From Desulfuromonas sp. SDB (GTDB taxonomy: Bacteria > SDB-A), in contig LKUE01000202.1 of assembly GCA_001412365.1 (NCBI GenBank), positions 1 through 6,874 on the forward strand: a stretch of 6,874 nt of DNA, in the 5' to 3' direction. Position numbers and translations under genes: made by a program. Below are positions 156-6,561 of the stretch, in pieces; positions within the stretch are counted from its first letter, which is position 1, and each line of letters begins with the position of its first letter. The notes below the pieces were generated by a model. That model saw only the letters and a list, made by a program, of their open reading frames with translations, was not told where the DNA came from and made no database searches.

Positions 156-1313
156 ATGAGTACAGTAAAACATGATCCATTAAGAGAATTAACAGAAATT
201 CGTGATCAATTATCGTATTCAAAGAGAATTGGTTTTCTGTTTGGAGCAGGAACTTCTAAATCTATGGGTATTTCAGATATTTCTGGATTAACTAAACTGA
301 TTGAAGAAAAAATATCAAAAGACCTAAGTCCAAAATTAGAAAAAGTTAAAGCACAATTAAATCCAGACCAAAAACATATAGAAGGTATATTGAACCAAAC
401 TAGACTGATAAGACAAATTACATGTGATTCTAAAGATAAATCATTTGATGGAATAAATGGTGAAGAAGCTAAAAACCTTGATAAGTCAATTTGCGATAAA
501 ATTTATAATATTATTTCAGAGGAAGAAGAAAAATCTGATGTTAGAACTGCTAAGAAGTTTATAAGATGGTTGAATTGGTTATCAAGAGATTATCCAAAAG
601 AGATTTTTACAACTAACTATGATTTAATTTTTGAGAAATCTTTTGAAGATTTATTTATTCCCTTCTTTGATGGTTTTATTGGTTCACATGAACCATTTTT
701 TGCTTATCAGACAATTGAAAATACTACAACATATGATAGACCTCCTATTTCTTGGATTCGTCTTTGGAAATTACATGGTTCTTTAGGATGGTTCTGGAAA
801 AAAGGAGAAAATGATAAAAGTGATAGAGTGATTAGGTTAGCTGCTGGTTCAAAAGAGAATTATCCAGATTCTGAATTAGTAATTTATCCTTCAAAAGATA
901 AATATGAGTCATCAAGAAAACAACCATTCACCAGCTATTTTGACAGACTAAAAGAATTTCTATTAGATGGTGAAGGTATTTTTATTATTAATGGGTATTC
1001 CTTTGCCGATGAACATATTAATGAAGTAATATTTAATTCACTAAATCAAAATAATAGAATTCATGCAATAGTATTTTTTTATAGTGATAAATCACTAAAA
1101 CGAATAATTGAATCAAACAAGAACATTCCTAATTTTACTTTAATCAGCCCTTCGCAAGCATCTATTTCAGGAATCGTTGGAGAATGGGAACTCAACAAGG
1201 AAAATGAGATACTAAGTCCATTTTGGAATAAAGATCAGAAATGCTTAACCATTGGAGATTTCAAGCATATGGTAGATTTCTTTATTTTATGTTCTGGAAT
1301 GAAAGAAGACTAA
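156..1313 (+). CDS. SIR2-family NADase-like effector (SIR2-HerA type)
   Basis: This 385-residue protein has a SIR2 Rossmann-like fold. The motifs seen, in order, are GAGTS at 30-34 (NAD-binding loop), TTNYD at 152-156 (the TxNxD motif, with N154 and D156), LHGS with H207 as the candidate catalytic histidine, and GYSFADEHI at 280-288 near the C-terminal edge of the fold. The paired CxxC zinc ligands of deacetylase sirtuins are absent, as is usual for defence SIR2 proteins that hydrolyse NAD+ rather than deacylate protein. No signal peptide or membrane segment is seen, so it should be cytoplasmic. Size and position directly before herA match the two-gene SIR2-HerA anti-phage systems, in which SIR2 subunits assemble on a HerA hexamer. 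NAD+ depletion on phage infection is therefore the expected outcome, by family analogy. The ATG at 156 has no Shine-Dalgarno sequence, like its neighbours; the GAGTS loop lies 30 residues in, which fits this start. All key residues are intact, so it should be active. Confidence 0.9.
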   Translation: MSTVKHDPLRELTEIRDQLSYSKRIGFLFGAGTSKSMGISDISGLTKLIEEKISKDLSPKLEKVKAQLNPDQKHIEGILNQTRLIRQITCDSKDKSFDGINGEEAKNLDKSICDKIYNIISEEEEKSDVRTAKKFIRWLNWLSRDYPKEIFTTNYDLIFEKSFEDLFIPFFDGFIGSHEPFFAYQTIENTTTYDRPPISWIRLWKLHGSLGWFWKKGENDKSDRVIRLAAGSKENYPDSELVIYPSKDKYESSRKQPFTSYFDRLKEFLLDGEGIFIINGYSFADEHINEVIFNSLNQNNRIHAIVFFYSDKSLKRIIESNKNIPNFTLISPSQASISGIVGEWELNKENEILSPFWNKDQKCLTIGDFKHMVDFFILCSGMKED

Positions 1314-1320
1314 CAACCAA

Positions 1321-3111
1321 ATGAGAAAAGACATAACATACTTGGGAAGAGTGATAAGTGTCAATAGTGGAAATGTTGAAATTGAAATTTCAAAGGAAAT
1401 TCCTTCCGCAGCTCCAATTATTGAAGGTAGATTATATAAAGTAGGACAAATTGGTACATTTGTTAAATTTCCAATTGGCAGCCTAACTCTATATGGAATA
1501 GTATCTTCGGTAAGTAATTCTCCATCTTCACTTGAGCAATCTTCTTACGAACCTAATTATGGCTTTAGATTTCTACAAGTTCAATTAATTGGAGAAAAAC
1601 TTGGAAATGAAAAATTTGAAAAAGGAGTTGGAACATATCCAACAATTAATGATCAAGTGCATATTGTAACTGAAGATGATCTAAGATTAATTTACGGAGA
1701 CAAGAAAGATGGTTTTATTGAGATTGGAAAGCATTCCTCATCAGAAAATCTTCCTGTATATATTGATACACACGACTTGGTTTTAAGACATTCTGCTATT
1801 TTAGGATCAACAGGAAGTGGCAAATCAAATACGACAGCTAATATTATCAAAAGAATTCTTAATGAGTATGAAGGTTCAAGAGTCGTATTAATTGATCCCC
1901 ATGGAGAATATTCATCTGCTTTTCCAGATATGTCAAAAGTTTTCAAAATAAATTCTAAAGAAAATCCCTTATGTATACCTTTTTGGGCAATGACATTTGA
2001 TGAATTATCATTTTTTTTAGTTGGTCGACCTGAGGGCCAGGAACAACCTGCTGATAAGAGATTAAGAGAAAAAATTATTGACCTAAAGAAAAAAAGTGCG
2101 GATAGTTTGAAAGCAGGCAAGATAGATGAACTATACATTACTGCTGATTCACCAGTTCCATTTGATATTAAAAAAATGTGGCATGATTTCAATAGAGAAG
2201 TGTATGGTACATATAGCACTGCTGTAAAAGATGAACAAACATTAGATACAGAAGAACTAGAAAATGCAGGAGATCCTAAAAATCTTATTCCTGCTAAGTT
2301 TAAACCTTATGCAATGGGAAGTGAAGCTCCTTATAAATCGAAAAATGAAGTCATGTATTCTTATGAGGCTAAAATCCTTTCACGCCTGAAAGATAACCGT
2401 TATAAATTTATGTTTGATCCTAATGATTATTTTGATGCAAGTAGCCAAAACGACATTGATCATTTGTTCAGAAGTTGGATTGAACATGATAAGCGTTTGA
2501 CGATTTTAAACTTAAATGGTGTTCCATTTGAACTAATAGATATCTCTGTTGGATTAATCAGTAGAATGATATACGATTCTATGTATTGGGGAAGGTTTGA
2601 AACTTATACAGGAAGAAGCAGACCAGTTTTAATGATTTATGAAGAAGCACATTCTTATTTGCTAAAATCTGAACATAGCAATCACATATATGGTTATGCA
2701 AGAAAATCTGTTGAGAAAATCTTCAAAGAGGGTAGGAAATTTGGAGTTGGATCAATGGTCGTAACTCAAAGACCATCAGAAATATCTGAAACCATTTTAG
2801 CACAAGTGGGTACATTTATTACTCTTCGCTTAACAAATAGTGGTGATAAAGGTACAGTTCAATCCTCAGCACCAAATAATATGAGTAGCCTTATAGAATT
2901 ATTGCCATCATTAAGAGTTGGAGAAGCAATTATTGTCGGAGAAGCTATAAATATTCCATCACGGATTAGAATCGAATTGGTGGAACCTAGACCATCTAGT
3001 AATGATCCTGAACTTGTTGCGGCATGGAAAAAGAAATTTAATCCTAATGATAATAATTATAAACAAATTGTTACAGCAATTAGGGAGCAAAAATCAATAC
3101 AAAAAAAATAA
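1321..3111 (+). CDS. HerA/FtsK-family hexameric ATPase of SIR2-HerA system
   Basis: This 596-residue protein is a HerA-type motor ATPase. Residues 1 to about 115 form the beta-rich HAS-barrel typical of HerA. Walker A is GSTGSGKS at 162-169 (K168), followed by DPHGEY at 192-197. Walker B is VLMIYEEAH at 436-444 with the acidic pair E441-E442. The HerA-specific stretch FKEGRKFGVGSMVVTQRPSEIS (about 468-489) includes the TQRP sensor. The C-terminal segment about 533-552 (LRVGEAIIVGEA, then a basic strand) is also family-typical. The variable region at about 230-390 between the Walker motifs is common in bacterial HerA proteins. In SIR2-HerA systems the HerA hexamer scaffolds and activates the SIR2 subunits and may translocate DNA. 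It starts 7 nt after the SIR2 stop and is probably translationally coupled. Here it is not paired with NurA, its housekeeping partner in archaea, which supports the defence reading. The gene ends in an A8 run next to the downstream KTSC gene. Confidence 0.92.
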   Translation: MRKDITYLGRVISVNSGNVEIEISKEIPSAAPIIEGRLYKVGQIGTFVKFPIGSLTLYGIVSSVSNSPSSLEQSSYEPNYGFRFLQVQLIGEKLGNEKFEKGVGTYPTINDQVHIVTEDDLRLIYGDKKDGFIEIGKHSSSENLPVYIDTHDLVLRHSAILGSTGSGKSNTTANIIKRILNEYEGSRVVLIDPHGEYSSAFPDMSKVFKINSKENPLCIPFWAMTFDELSFFLVGRPEGQEQPADKRLREKIIDLKKKSADSLKAGKIDELYITADSPVPFDIKKMWHDFNREVYGTYSTAVKDEQTLDTEELENAGDPKNLIPAKFKPYAMGSEAPYKSKNEVMYSYEAKILSRLKDNRYKFMFDPNDYFDASSQNDIDHLFRSWIEHDKRLTILNLNGVPFELIDISVGLISRMIYDSMYWGRFETYTGRSRPVLMIYEEAHSYLLKSEHSNHIYGYARKSVEKIFKEGRKFGVGSMVVTQRPSEISETILAQVGTFITLRLTNSGDKGTVQSSAPNNMSSLIELLPSLRVGEAIIVGEAINIPSRIRIELVEPRPSSNDPELVAAWKKKFNPNDNNYKQIVTAIREQKSIQKK

Positions 3112-3115
3112 TATT

Positions 3116-3328
3116 ATGGAAATGATACAAGTTAAATCTTCAAATCTTGCAGCAGTTGGTTATGATCCAAACAGTGCAGTTTTAAAAGTTGAATTTTTAA
3201 ATTGTAGAATTTATGAATATTATGATGTCCCTCAGTATATTTTCGATGAGTTATTAGCAGCTGACTCAAAGGGAAAGTACGCTGCATCAAACATATATAA
3301 GAATTATAACCAGCAAAGAATTTTATAA
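3116..3328 (+). CDS. KTSC-domain small protein
   Basis: This 70-residue protein consists almost entirely of one KTSC domain, named for its occurrence at the lysyl-tRNA synthetase C-terminus. The sequence shows the family pattern: SSNLAAVGYDP at 8-18, a strand LKVEF, then the central YxY motif Y33-E34-Y35 followed by YDVP. A short helix follows (IFDELLAADSKGKY), and a basic, Asn/Tyr-rich tail. The family function is unknown; RNA binding has been suggested. The ATG at 3116 is 4 nt after the herA stop and gives a protein of normal KTSC length; ATG 3122 is an in-frame alternative. The reading frame extends upstream to 3002, but that part overlaps herA and is not KTSC-like. The stop lies 1 nt before the DUF2130 start, so these two genes are tightly coupled. 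Its role here is unknown: a nucleic-acid sensor, a small accessory subunit or a partner of DUF2130 are all possible. Confidence 0.8.
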   Translation: MEMIQVKSSNLAAVGYDPNSAVLKVEFLNCRIYEYYDVPQYIFDELLAADSKGKYAASNIYKNYNQQRIL

Positions 3329-3329
3329 A

Positions 3330-4601
3330 ATGGAAGGAAAAACTAGAATAAAGTGCCCAAATTGTGGTACTTTCATAGATGTTCAAGATATTCTTGCACA
3401 TCAATTAGAGGAAGAAATCCAGAAAAAATATCAGGATCAACTTTCCGAACAAAAAAAGAAATATGACTCAGATTTGATTCAACTTAATAATGCTAAGAGA
3501 GAATTTGAAGAGCAAAAACGTATGGAGAATGAAAGATTTAACAAACTCCTTGATAGTAAGATAAAAGAAGAGAAAAAAAACCTTGAGGAAAAAATTAAGA
3601 TAAAGTTTCTAGAAGAACAATCTGAACAATTTCAAGCATTACAAAAAGAGCTTAATGAGAAATCTGAACAGATCAAAGAACTGAACAGAACAAAAGCTGA
3701 GATTGAAAAACTGAAACGTGAAAAAGGGGAATTAAAAACAGCAGCAGAAGCAGAAGCACAAAAAAAACTTAATGAGTTACTTTTATTGGAACGAAAGAAA
3801 ATAAGGAAAAGTGAAGAAGAAAAAACTGAATTGAAATTCAAAGAACTTCAAAAACAACTTGAAGATCAAAAGAAACTGACTGAAGAAATGAAACGTAAGC
3901 AGGAACAAGGGTCAATGCAATTACAAGGTGAGGTTCAAGAATTAGCAATTAAAGAATGGCTTTCATTCCAATTTCCTTTAGATACTATTGAGGAAATTAA
4001 AAAAGGAGTAAGAGGTGGCGATTGTTTACAAATCGTTAATACAAGAAGTCGTCAGAATTGTGGAAAAATATACTATGAAAGTAAGCGTACAAAAGACTTT
4101 CAACCAAGTTGGATTGAAAAATTCAAGGCAGATATGAGAATTAAAAGTGCTGACATTGGTGTTCTTGTTACTGATGCAATGCCATCAGACATGGAACGCA
4201 TGGGAATGCAAAACGGAATTTGGATTTGTAATTACAATGAATTCAAAGGTTTATGTTCTGTATTAAGAGAATCAATCATACAATTAAGCCTGGTATTGCA
4301 ATCACAAGAAAATAAAGGGGATAAAATGCACTTGTTGTATGATTTTCTAACCAGTAATAGTTTTCGCATGCAAATTGAAGCAATTGTTGAGGGATTCTCT
4401 TCAATTAAATCTGCATTGGATAGTGAAAAAAGATCTATGCAACGTATCTGGAAAGAAAGAGAAAAACAAATTGAAAAGGTTATCTATAACACAATTGATA
4501 TGTATGGTTCAATTAAGGGAATTGCAGGAAATGCAATACAGTCAGTTAAAGCATTAGAATTACCCGAAGGAGAAGATAATTCTGAAGAAATATCTGAATG
4601 A
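3330..4601 (+). CDS. DUF2130 coiled-coil protein, predicted PD-(D/E)XK nuclease
   Basis: This 423-residue protein belongs to the DUF2130 family and has a normal length for it. The N-terminus carries a single CPNCG knuckle (C9, C12) with no second Cys pair. Residues about 25-198 are Lys/Glu/Gln-rich heptads predicting a long coiled coil. The core then shows a PD-(D/E)XK-like pattern: E201/E204 in GEVQELAI, D231 in RGGDCLQIV, and YESKRT at 249-254 giving E250-x-K252, followed by a hydrophobic strand ADIGVLVTD at 274-282. The C-terminus has family-typical stretches LLYDFLTSNSFR (about 335-346), MQRIWKEREKQIE (370-382) and MYGSIKGIAG (391-400). The layout resembles RmuC, a coiled coil plus nuclease fold. 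DNA cleavage is inferred; the family lacks a firm biochemical function as far as I know. It starts 1 nt after the KTSC stop, and its own TGA is overlapped by an ATG (ATGA at 4598-4601) that is out of frame with the next gene. Confidence 0.85.
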   Translation: MEGKTRIKCPNCGTFIDVQDILAHQLEEEIQKKYQDQLSEQKKKYDSDLIQLNNAKREFEEQKRMENERFNKLLDSKIKEEKKNLEEKIKIKFLEEQSEQFQALQKELNEKSEQIKELNRTKAEIEKLKREKGELKTAAEAEAQKKLNELLLLERKKIRKSEEEKTELKFKELQKQLEDQKKLTEEMKRKQEQGSMQLQGEVQELAIKEWLSFQFPLDTIEEIKKGVRGGDCLQIVNTRSRQNCGKIYYESKRTKDFQPSWIEKFKADMRIKSADIGVLVTDAMPSDMERMGMQNGIWICNYNEFKGLCSVLRESIIQLSLVLQSQENKGDKMHLLYDFLTSNSFRMQIEAIVEGFSSIKSALDSEKRSMQRIWKEREKQIEKVIYNTIDMYGSIKGIAGNAIQSVKALELPEGEDNSEEISE

Positions 4602-4636
4602 ATACAATATTCAAATTGATAAATCGCACAAATTGA
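4598..4636 (+). other. Out-of-frame ATGA start at DUF2130/nuclease junction
   Basis: ATG 4598-4600 overlaps the DUF2130 stop TGA 4599-4601, the arrangement usually seen for translationally coupled genes. Its reading frame lasts only 12 codons and ends at TGA 4634-4636. The long downstream frame is offset by one base: 38 nt separate ATG 4598 from the in-frame codon at 4636, where 39 would join them. One missing base, or a -1 ribosomal shift, would link this ATG to the downstream protein. No classic X XXY YYZ slippery heptamer is visible at the join, so a sequence or assembly deletion, or simply a different start, is at least as likely. Confidence 0.45.
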
Positions 4637-6561
4637 AAGACTCTTATAATATTTTTAATGTTTTATTTGATCCTGATCTCATGCAAAAAGCTACCAAAAT
4701 AACCGAAAAATTTTTCTTTGAAGGTCGGGAACGTTACTTTCAAAACGAGATCAAAACCAGCAAAGAAACGTATAAATGTTTAAAACAATATCTTGATTTC
4801 TTGATGAGACAGGTTAAAAAAAGGATGAGTCAACATTCAAAATATAGTCTTATTTACTATTTCCGACGTATATTGAGTAACATGTTACAAACATATGACA
4901 ATACTGAATGGAAACAGGAAGAAATAAAAACTTTTAAGACCGAGTTATTATGGTTTGTTTGGTTTTCTAACAGAATTACACTTGCAGCTATAAAATATGG
5001 TCGTTCTAGTTTAGATGATCTGCAAAATTTTTCTTTCAAACATAAAGGTTTTTCAGAATATATTGAATTGAATCAATTGACTTCAAAATATAGTGTAGAT
5101 TTACATGTAACATTATCTCTGATGTGGGAATGGGATAAAATAAGATATTGTATGAAAAGATTAGCTAGAGGTGGAAAATTTATTTGGCGAAATAGAAATA
5201 AATTTGAATTTGATATAATAATGGAACCAAATATTAAAAATCTTGTTAATATATTTGATACCCGAGTAAATTCAACAGACAATCTATTAAACATTCAAGG
5301 TTCATGGGCTCCTATGATAACAAGTTTTGAATTCCCACTACCTTCATCTAGAGGTATATATAAACCTCTTCATATTTGGCCGAAAGCATTCTCCATTAAT
5401 AGTGGTGCTCTATCTTATTATCTTCCAATAGTGTTGACATTATTGCCAAATATTAGTAATCAAGGTAGTGATTTAGGATGGCGAGATCCTACAACAAATC
5501 AACTGATTCCTTCTCCTTCTTGGATATTTCATTGGTATCGATTAGATTTTATACTACCTAGAATTGAATTATTTCGTGGTGTTATCAAAAAATATCTAGA
5601 ATTCTCTGGACGTACAAATTATGAACCAGAAGATTTGATCTTAACCCTATCTGCAATAACACAATATTCAATAAACGCAGGACTTAATAATGATAAATGT
5701 TGGTATCAAATCTTTTCATATGGTTATTCTATTTGGAATGATCCATATGAGTTATTAAAACATAAAGTTTTACCGGAATATAGAAACTTAAAAAAAATTT
5801 CTCTTGGTAAAACTTCATCAAAAGGAGATTGGGAATCACTAAAATCAGTTATTGAAGATATCAAATGGAATGAAATACAATATAAAAACCTCAATATATT
5901 GAGATACTCACCTATTAATCTTATTTTACCAATTGACAAAAATATATGGCTCATTGATTGGTCTTTAATGCTTCATGTAATTTTAGATTTGACGAAATCT
6001 TATGGAAGAATATTTGGTACTGTTGCGATTCTTAAAGGATTTGAACTTGAACGAACCCTTTCTGAATATTTTAAATCCAATTTTCAGACATTGGGAATTT
6101 CTTTGTGGTGGTTGGGTCAAGGAGCGAAAAATAAAATTAGATTTCATGCTGGGGGAGTGCGAGATATTGATATTGGTATTATTGTGGATGATCATCTTCT
6201 AATACTCGAAGTAAAAGCATATTCAGGACGATGGGATTTATATCTTAATCCTGATCCTAATATGTTAAAGAAAAGATGGGAAAAAAAAATTAAACCGGCT
6301 ATAAATCAGGTAGATACACTTTCAGAACGTTTAAGTATTGAAATAGAAGGAAAAAACTTCAAAATACCGTGTGATGTGAGATGGGTTGTTCCTATTGTTT
6401 GTAGTCCATTTGTTGAATGGATCCCATCATATAACCAAAAATGGTGGCTTTATAAAAATATCCCAAGAGTTTGCACACCAGATGAAATATTTGAGATAAT
6501 TGAACAGATAAAAAAAGGGAACTCACCTAATTATAAATTACCTGTTGCCAGAACTAGCTAA
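4633..6561 (+). CDS. Large unrecognised protein with C-terminal NERD-like PD-(D/E)XK nuclease
   Basis: This 642-residue protein (counted from TTG 4633) has two parts. Residues 1 to about 455 match no family I recognise; they look mostly alpha-helical, rich in Trp, Tyr and Lys, with no signal peptide or convincing membrane helix. Residues about 457-600 show a PD-(D/E)XK restriction-endonuclease-like core: E471/E473 in GFELER, D511 and D513 in RDIDIGI, LEVKA with E526-x-K528, and a later helix with Q559. The order E...D...ExK...Q resembles NERD-type nuclease domains. The catalytic set looks intact, so it may cut DNA or RNA, and the N-terminal part may be the sensor or targeting module; this is inference. 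The start is uncertain: TTG 4633 is 31 nt after the DUF2130 stop, ATG 4681 would give 626 residues, and the frame stays open upstream to 4558 without ATG or GTG. AAGGAG at 4567-4572, inside DUF2130, precedes a CTG at 4582, but the other genes do not use Shine-Dalgarno sites. The gene ends with tandem stops, TAA TAG. Confidence 0.75.
   Translation: MKDSYNIFNVLFDPDLMQKATKITEKFFFEGRERYFQNEIKTSKETYKCLKQYLDFLMRQVKKRMSQHSKYSLIYYFRRILSNMLQTYDNTEWKQEEIKTFKTELLWFVWFSNRITLAAIKYGRSSLDDLQNFSFKHKGFSEYIELNQLTSKYSVDLHVTLSLMWEWDKIRYCMKRLARGGKFIWRNRNKFEFDIIMEPNIKNLVNIFDTRVNSTDNLLNIQGSWAPMITSFEFPLPSSRGIYKPLHIWPKAFSINSGALSYYLPIVLTLLPNISNQGSDLGWRDPTTNQLIPSPSWIFHWYRLDFILPRIELFRGVIKKYLEFSGRTNYEPEDLILTLSAITQYSINAGLNNDKCWYQIFSYGYSIWNDPYELLKHKVLPEYRNLKKISLGKTSSKGDWESLKSVIEDIKWNEIQYKNLNILRYSPINLILPIDKNIWLIDWSLMLHVILDLTKSYGRIFGTVAILKGFELERTLSEYFKSNFQTLGISLWWLGQGAKNKIRFHAGGVRDIDIGIIVDDHLLILEVKAYSGRWDLYLNPDPNMLKKRWEKKIKPAINQVDTLSERLSIEIEGKNFKIPCDVRWVVPIVCSPFVEWIPSYNQKWWLYKNIPRVCTPDEIFEIIEQIKKGNSPNYKLPVARTS

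Follow-up and report, generated by a model that had tools for sequence, protein, structure and literature searches.

The window analysed here, a stretch of 6,874 nt that makes up the whole of contig C202 in a 433-contig, 3.14-Mb MAG assembly, probably carries an abortive-infection operon of the SIR2-HerA (Nezha) type, in which a three-gene core would be joined by an optional and swappable DUF2130 nuclease and followed by a passenger fifth gene; for this reading, drawn from sequence comparison, we estimate a probability of roughly 0.6. A preliminary description had placed five same-strand genes between positions 156 and 6561 with gaps of 4, 1 and about 31 nt ahead of the last three, and both points were confirmed, since five ORFs on the + strand lie at these coordinates and the computed gaps are 4, 1 and 31 nt, preceded by one of 7 nt between SIR2 and HerA. 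The features are as follows.

61 to 76, no strand: perfect inverted repeat, possible operator (upstream of SIR2)
156 to 1313, + strand: SIR2-family NADase of the SIR2-HerA system, 385 aa (Pfam, PADLOC, solved-chain alignment)
1321 to 3111, + strand: HerA/FtsK-type hexameric ATPase, 596 aa (Pfam, PADLOC, match to 8WIV_A)
3116 to 3328, + strand: KTSC-domain protein, 70 aa (Pfam, position after HerA, fusion in 8WIV_A)
3330 to 4601, + strand: DUF2130 protein, 423 aa (Pfam, AF2 model, invariant residues)
4633 to 6561, + strand: fifth gene, 642 aa, TTG start or ATG at 4681 (ORF; C-terminal NERD-like stretch)

In GC and tetranucleotide make-up the window is mildly unlike the other contigs of the assembly (0.92 vs 0.95-0.97), and the contig may be a binning error; the source phylum is represented by only four genomes in the collection. 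The inverted repeat TTTGGTTTTAACCAAA, with arms TTTGGTT and AACCAAA around a central TT, lies 80 nt 5' of the SIR2 start and has a chance expectation of 0.01; it is absent from all other loci fetched. Promoter and terminator scans of the window returned no more than shuffles did, and an Rfam search of it gave no match.

The first two genes are readily assigned. They contain a SIR2_2 domain (Pfam, 1.1e-17) and a HerA DUF87 domain (Pfam, 1.3e-38), respectively, and match the PADLOC SIR2-HerA models at 1.8e-117 (SIR2) and 2.2e-155 (HerA), while KTSC, DUF2130 and the fifth gene have no match in the PADLOC defence models. The SIR2 protein aligns over its full length with the solved SIR2 chains 8W9L and 8J4U, and its residues N154 and H207, invariant across the SIR2 alignment (A1), fall on N168 and H227 of 8J4U as hand-counted in the alignment. 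N168 and H227 are catalytic, and mutation of residues with the same numbers in the V. cholerae Nezha system led to loss of immunity (PMC11559045). HerA matches the solved chain 8WIV_A over its full length (1.8e-127) and keeps both Walker A (GSTGSGKS) and Walker B (EEAH), the key residues being invariant in the alignment. Since the matches to solved chains, the catalytic residues and the Walker motifs are all kept, the expected primary action here, by analogy with the homologues, is that SIR2 and HerA assemble into a complex and deplete NAD+. The locus is like the described SIR2-HerA or Nezha system (Gao 2020; 8J4U, 8WIV series; PMC11559045) in its SIR2-then-HerA order, its full-length matches, its catalytic residues and the expected NADase/ATPase complex, but that system is described as having two genes, whereas here a separate KTSC gene stands third and a DUF2130 gene fourth.

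The KTSC profile (PF13619, 3.1e-22, positions 1-58) covers all 58 domain positions in the third gene. With alignment A1, 80 loci were fetched from one-per-species genome contigs, and 76 of them have HerA and the downstream side intact; left out were L033, which ends inside HerA, L053, L068 and L085, all cut by contig ends or having no HerA in the stretch. KTSC lies directly 3' of HerA in 75 of the 76 intact loci (the sole exception is L025), a percentage that describes this SIR2 clade and not all SIR2-HerA loci, because the seeds used for fetching all carried KTSC. L250 was considered as a KTSC-less locus and rejected, its HerA being disrupted. The hosts of KTSC loci include Bacteroidetes, Proteobacteria, Bacillota, Acidobacteria, Chloroflexi, Planctomycetota, a Treponema and Candidatus Omnitrophica. 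On viral contigs this SIR2 clade has 12 loci that continue beyond HerA, and all 12 carry KTSC, whereas none of the roughly 45 SIR2-HerA loci from other clades does; annotated plasmids concur, with KTSC in KTSC-clade loci and none in loci of other clades, and when genomes were drawn evenly from a single phylum, the intact loci fetched also had KTSC after HerA.

The solved complex 8W9L/8WIV, whose SIR2 was nearest to KTSC-clade loci in the plasmid search, provides the strongest evidence that KTSC is a core part of this clade. As read from the chain sequence, HerA chain 8WIV_A ends in a full KTSC domain (residues 628-696, 6.6e-30), either as a natural fusion or as part of the construct; entries 8WLD, 8WOC, 8WOD and 8WOF of this series also contain the SIR2 chain, and SIR2 and HerA chains alone were matched in them. 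KTSC is fused in the solved complex and has its own gene in the window, where, in sequence terms, the 70-aa protein corresponds to the C-terminal domain of 8WIV HerA, split off. Because KTSC is fused to the HerA C-terminus in a solved SIR2-HerA complex, the core of this SIR2 clade is, on these comparisons, the three genes SIR2-HerA-KTSC. The preliminary description had put KTSC outside the described system, which is correct for the PADLOC models, as they lack KTSC, but is at odds with its near-universal presence in the clade and its fusion to HerA. A link between HerA and KTSC has already been published for variants made up of HerA, KTSC and an endoDNase (PMC9503650); these pair HerA with a KTSC gene and a DNase, as here, but in them the DNase replaces the sirtuin, whereas the window has SIR2 and a predicted DNase together. 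KTSC is usually overlooked; SIR2-HerA is studied as a two-gene system. A two-gene SIR2-HerA locus of V. cholerae, which may or may not belong to the KTSC clade, is protective (PMC11559045). Should KTSC be required throughout the clade, its systems may have been only partly rebuilt where just two genes were used, and the fused KTSC of the solved complex makes such a requirement directly testable.

The comparisons point, more weakly than for KTSC, to DUF2130 as a real but optional fourth gene of SIR2-HerA-KTSC; a fourth nuclease gene is absent from most loci of the KTSC clade. DUF2130 adjoins the core at L016, L020 (downstream), L022, L055, L057 and L094 (upstream). In the genome-contig loci that have it, it is the immediate same-strand neighbour in six of six (positional P about 0.0015 given the gene slots), with a spacing of 1 nt, 9 nt or an overlap in several of them. 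On the SIR2 tree, where the identical SIR2 sequences of L055 and L057 were counted once, its presence requires at least four changes, which would mean that DUF2130 came to lie beside the core independently in four or more lineages. Positions 168 to 4588 of the window (SIR2 to the end of DUF2130) align to L016, a Muricauda MAG, in one unbroken stretch at 73% DNA identity, with protein identities of 70.5 (SIR2), 80.7 (HerA), 68.1 (KTSC) and 76.0% (DUF2130), as expected if the four genes had travelled together. The block common to the window and L018, where another family (F345, see below) is found, ends at KTSC. At L020 (10160-13076) the DUF2130 frame stops at about 155 aa beside reverse-strand genes resembling IS proteins (with no profile annotation), and it looks like an interrupted fourth gene.

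DUF2130 is predicted to be a PD-(D/E)XK nuclease, its activity being inferred from the model and from conserved residues. The protein matches the DUF2130 profile (PF09903) at 6.7e-76 over positions 2-253 of 255 and consists of an N-terminal zinc ribbon (CPNC), a long coiled coil and a C-terminal PD-(D/E)XK nuclease core, in which D231, E250 and K252 are invariant in 13 sequences. In VIA-align, residues 193-321 of the AF2 model reached Z 8-10.4 against McrC, Can2, Hjc/Holliday junction resolvases and restriction enzymes, and about 110 residues of the core superpose on PD-(D/E)XK nucleases with an rmsd of about 3 A. By itself, Foldseek returned nothing significant for the model, and no relative of DUF2130 was found in the PDB.

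Judged by its neighbours, DUF2130 is a portable module, because it adjoins Gabija, OLD and R-M genes and is mostly found away from SIR2-HerA. Across 326 genomes of the phylum of L016 it was found in 55 places, and it is adjacent to SIR2 only at L016 itself, in the centre genome; in other genomes, 11 regions with DUF2130 had no SIR2-HerA in the vicinity. Genes packed closely against DUF2130 at such places include the Gabija genes GajA/GajB, OLD-like and AAA_15 ATPases, a PDC-S06 ATPase and a type IIG R-M enzyme; on two Chryseobacterium plasmids its neighbours are type I R-M genes. On an Aliarcobacter plasmid (L003, 7001-12207) DUF2130 lies 1 nt 5' of a GajA-GajB pair, a distance from a defence system equal to that in the window; the Gabija core is unrelated to that of SIR2-HerA, which illustrates that DUF2130 is portable. 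On one Bradyrhizobium plasmid DUF2130 lies about 1.5 kb from KTSC and is not adjacent to it.

In sister loci the place of DUF2130 appears to be filled by F345, an unnamed family of about 345 aa with no Pfam family above threshold and an invariant GDI...IECK motif. F345 lies directly 3' of KTSC at L018 (10194-11219), L019, L021, L023, L024, L092, L093, L166, L245 and L251, the last being a Paracoccus plasmid, and further downstream of KTSC at L017, where an 826-aa gene with weak similarity to LmuB (PADLOC) stands between the two (7512-9989). Its presence requires at least five changes on the SIR2 tree, and it was found only with SIR2-HerA-KTSC, including its single place in the 326 genomes of the phylum of L016, an even draw; it is accordingly a candidate for a dedicated fourth component. 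In the subclade of the window (the eight-row set with L023 and L024) either DUF2130 or F345 is present in 10/10 loci. Common descent of the two families is not claimed, as hhalign gave a probability of only 4%, even though the part it aligned coincides with the GD..ExK motif. A wider proposal, which we make tentatively, is a dedicated exchangeable nuclease slot, occupied by DUF2130 or F345, that would couple NAD+ depletion to targeted DNA cleavage, with DUF2130 as a general plug-in for SIR2-HerA-KTSC, Gabija, OLD-type and R-M systems. DUF2130 is almost absent from the literature searched, and such a slot, if real, would make it a portable defence effector.

The fifth gene is probably a passenger, because the shared block does not extend to it and the searches returned no relative, although its rarity alone is no proof. 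The block common to the window and L016 ends at the DUF2130 stop, and the L016 contig ends 270 nt past DUF2130 without a frame matching the fifth gene. No relatives were found in viral contigs, plasmids or genome contigs (the last searched for close relatives only), in 290 diverse genomes, in the 11 genomes of related loci or in 395 genomes of the phylum of L016; these searches could show only close or profile-detectable relatives, and this absence is not proof. Residues 502-589 give a borderline NERD match, its 22.0 bits (E 2.4e-4) falling just short of the cut-off of 22.1, and the single-sequence AF2 model has a pLDDT of 33. The start of the fifth gene (window 4598-4681) is irregular, since the 642-aa frame offers only TTG at 4633 or ATG at 4681, and an ATGA overlapping the DUF2130 stop at 4598 opens 12 codons out of register with the frame; either a sequencing indel or a real start would account for this.

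The main rival to an operon with an optional fourth gene is that two modules lie end to end, a complete SIR2-HerA-KTSC system followed by an independent DUF2130 (with the fifth gene), placed there by the clustering of defence genes. DUF2130 is common without SIR2-HerA and near other defence genes (Gabija, OLD, PDC-S06 and R-M), so its adjacency could reflect such defence-island clustering, and most SIR2-HerA-KTSC loci lack it. We nevertheless regard this as unlikely, given that DUF2130, wherever the flanks in genome contigs contain it, directly adjoins the core on the same strand, in several loci at 1 or 9 nt or with an overlap, that this adjacency arises repeatedly on the SIR2 tree, that a four-gene block is common to the window and the Muricauda MAG, and that the slot is refilled by F345, a family seen only beside SIR2-HerA-KTSC. 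That all five genes form one system, in which NAD+ depletion is coupled to two nucleases, could be argued from the common strand, the small gaps throughout and the NERD-like C-terminus of the fifth gene, but is highly improbable, as none of the SIR2-HerA loci or genomes searched contains a relative of the fifth gene, the homologous block stops before it and its start codon is irregular. Both ideas of the preliminary description survive in part: its extended SIR2-HerA system holds for KTSC (near-universal presence, HerA fusion) and more weakly for DUF2130 (recurrent adjacency, four-gene block) but not for the fifth gene (no relative, outside the block), and its two modules placed end to end agree with the portability of DUF2130 but not with KTSC, which belongs to the first module. 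The pattern it had named as speaking against extension, namely that the three genes after HerA are mostly found apart from SIR2-HerA and are missing from its relatives, was seen for the fifth gene, partly for DUF2130 and clearly not for KTSC.

For the preferred operon with a three-gene core and an optional nuclease, the mode of action would be as follows. SIR2 would join a HerA hexamer and destroy NAD+ on infection, as known for homologues. KTSC, as third subunit, would most likely dock on the C-terminal face of the HerA ring, because it matches the domain fused to the solved HerA C-terminus, and may there help to engage or sense DNA and thereby gate the ATPase and the NADase. DUF2130 would probably cut invading DNA, and in doing so could act as a second effector or create ends onto which HerA loads, and F345 would fill its slot in sister loci. 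Alternatively, KTSC (or DUF2130) could be neither a sensor nor an effector subunit but a regulator or antitoxin that holds the SIR2 NADase in check, in keeping with the small size of KTSC and its position as last gene of the core operon. This seems quite improbable to us, since KTSC is fused to HerA and not to SIR2, which points to a constant structural partnership with the ATPase ring, and since other SIR2-HerA clades lack KTSC.

HerA-DUF4297 and HerA-NurA also combine a HerA ATPase with a nuclease, but there HerA is partnered by the nuclease in place of SIR2, whereas DUF2130 in the window is a separate accessory. A further family was seen to adjoin SIR2-HerA-KTSC, being common to L029, L031, L080 and L091, where it lies upstream, and L088, where it lies downstream; its L029 member matches DUF2779 at 1.2e-41 and has weak Cas4-like similarity.
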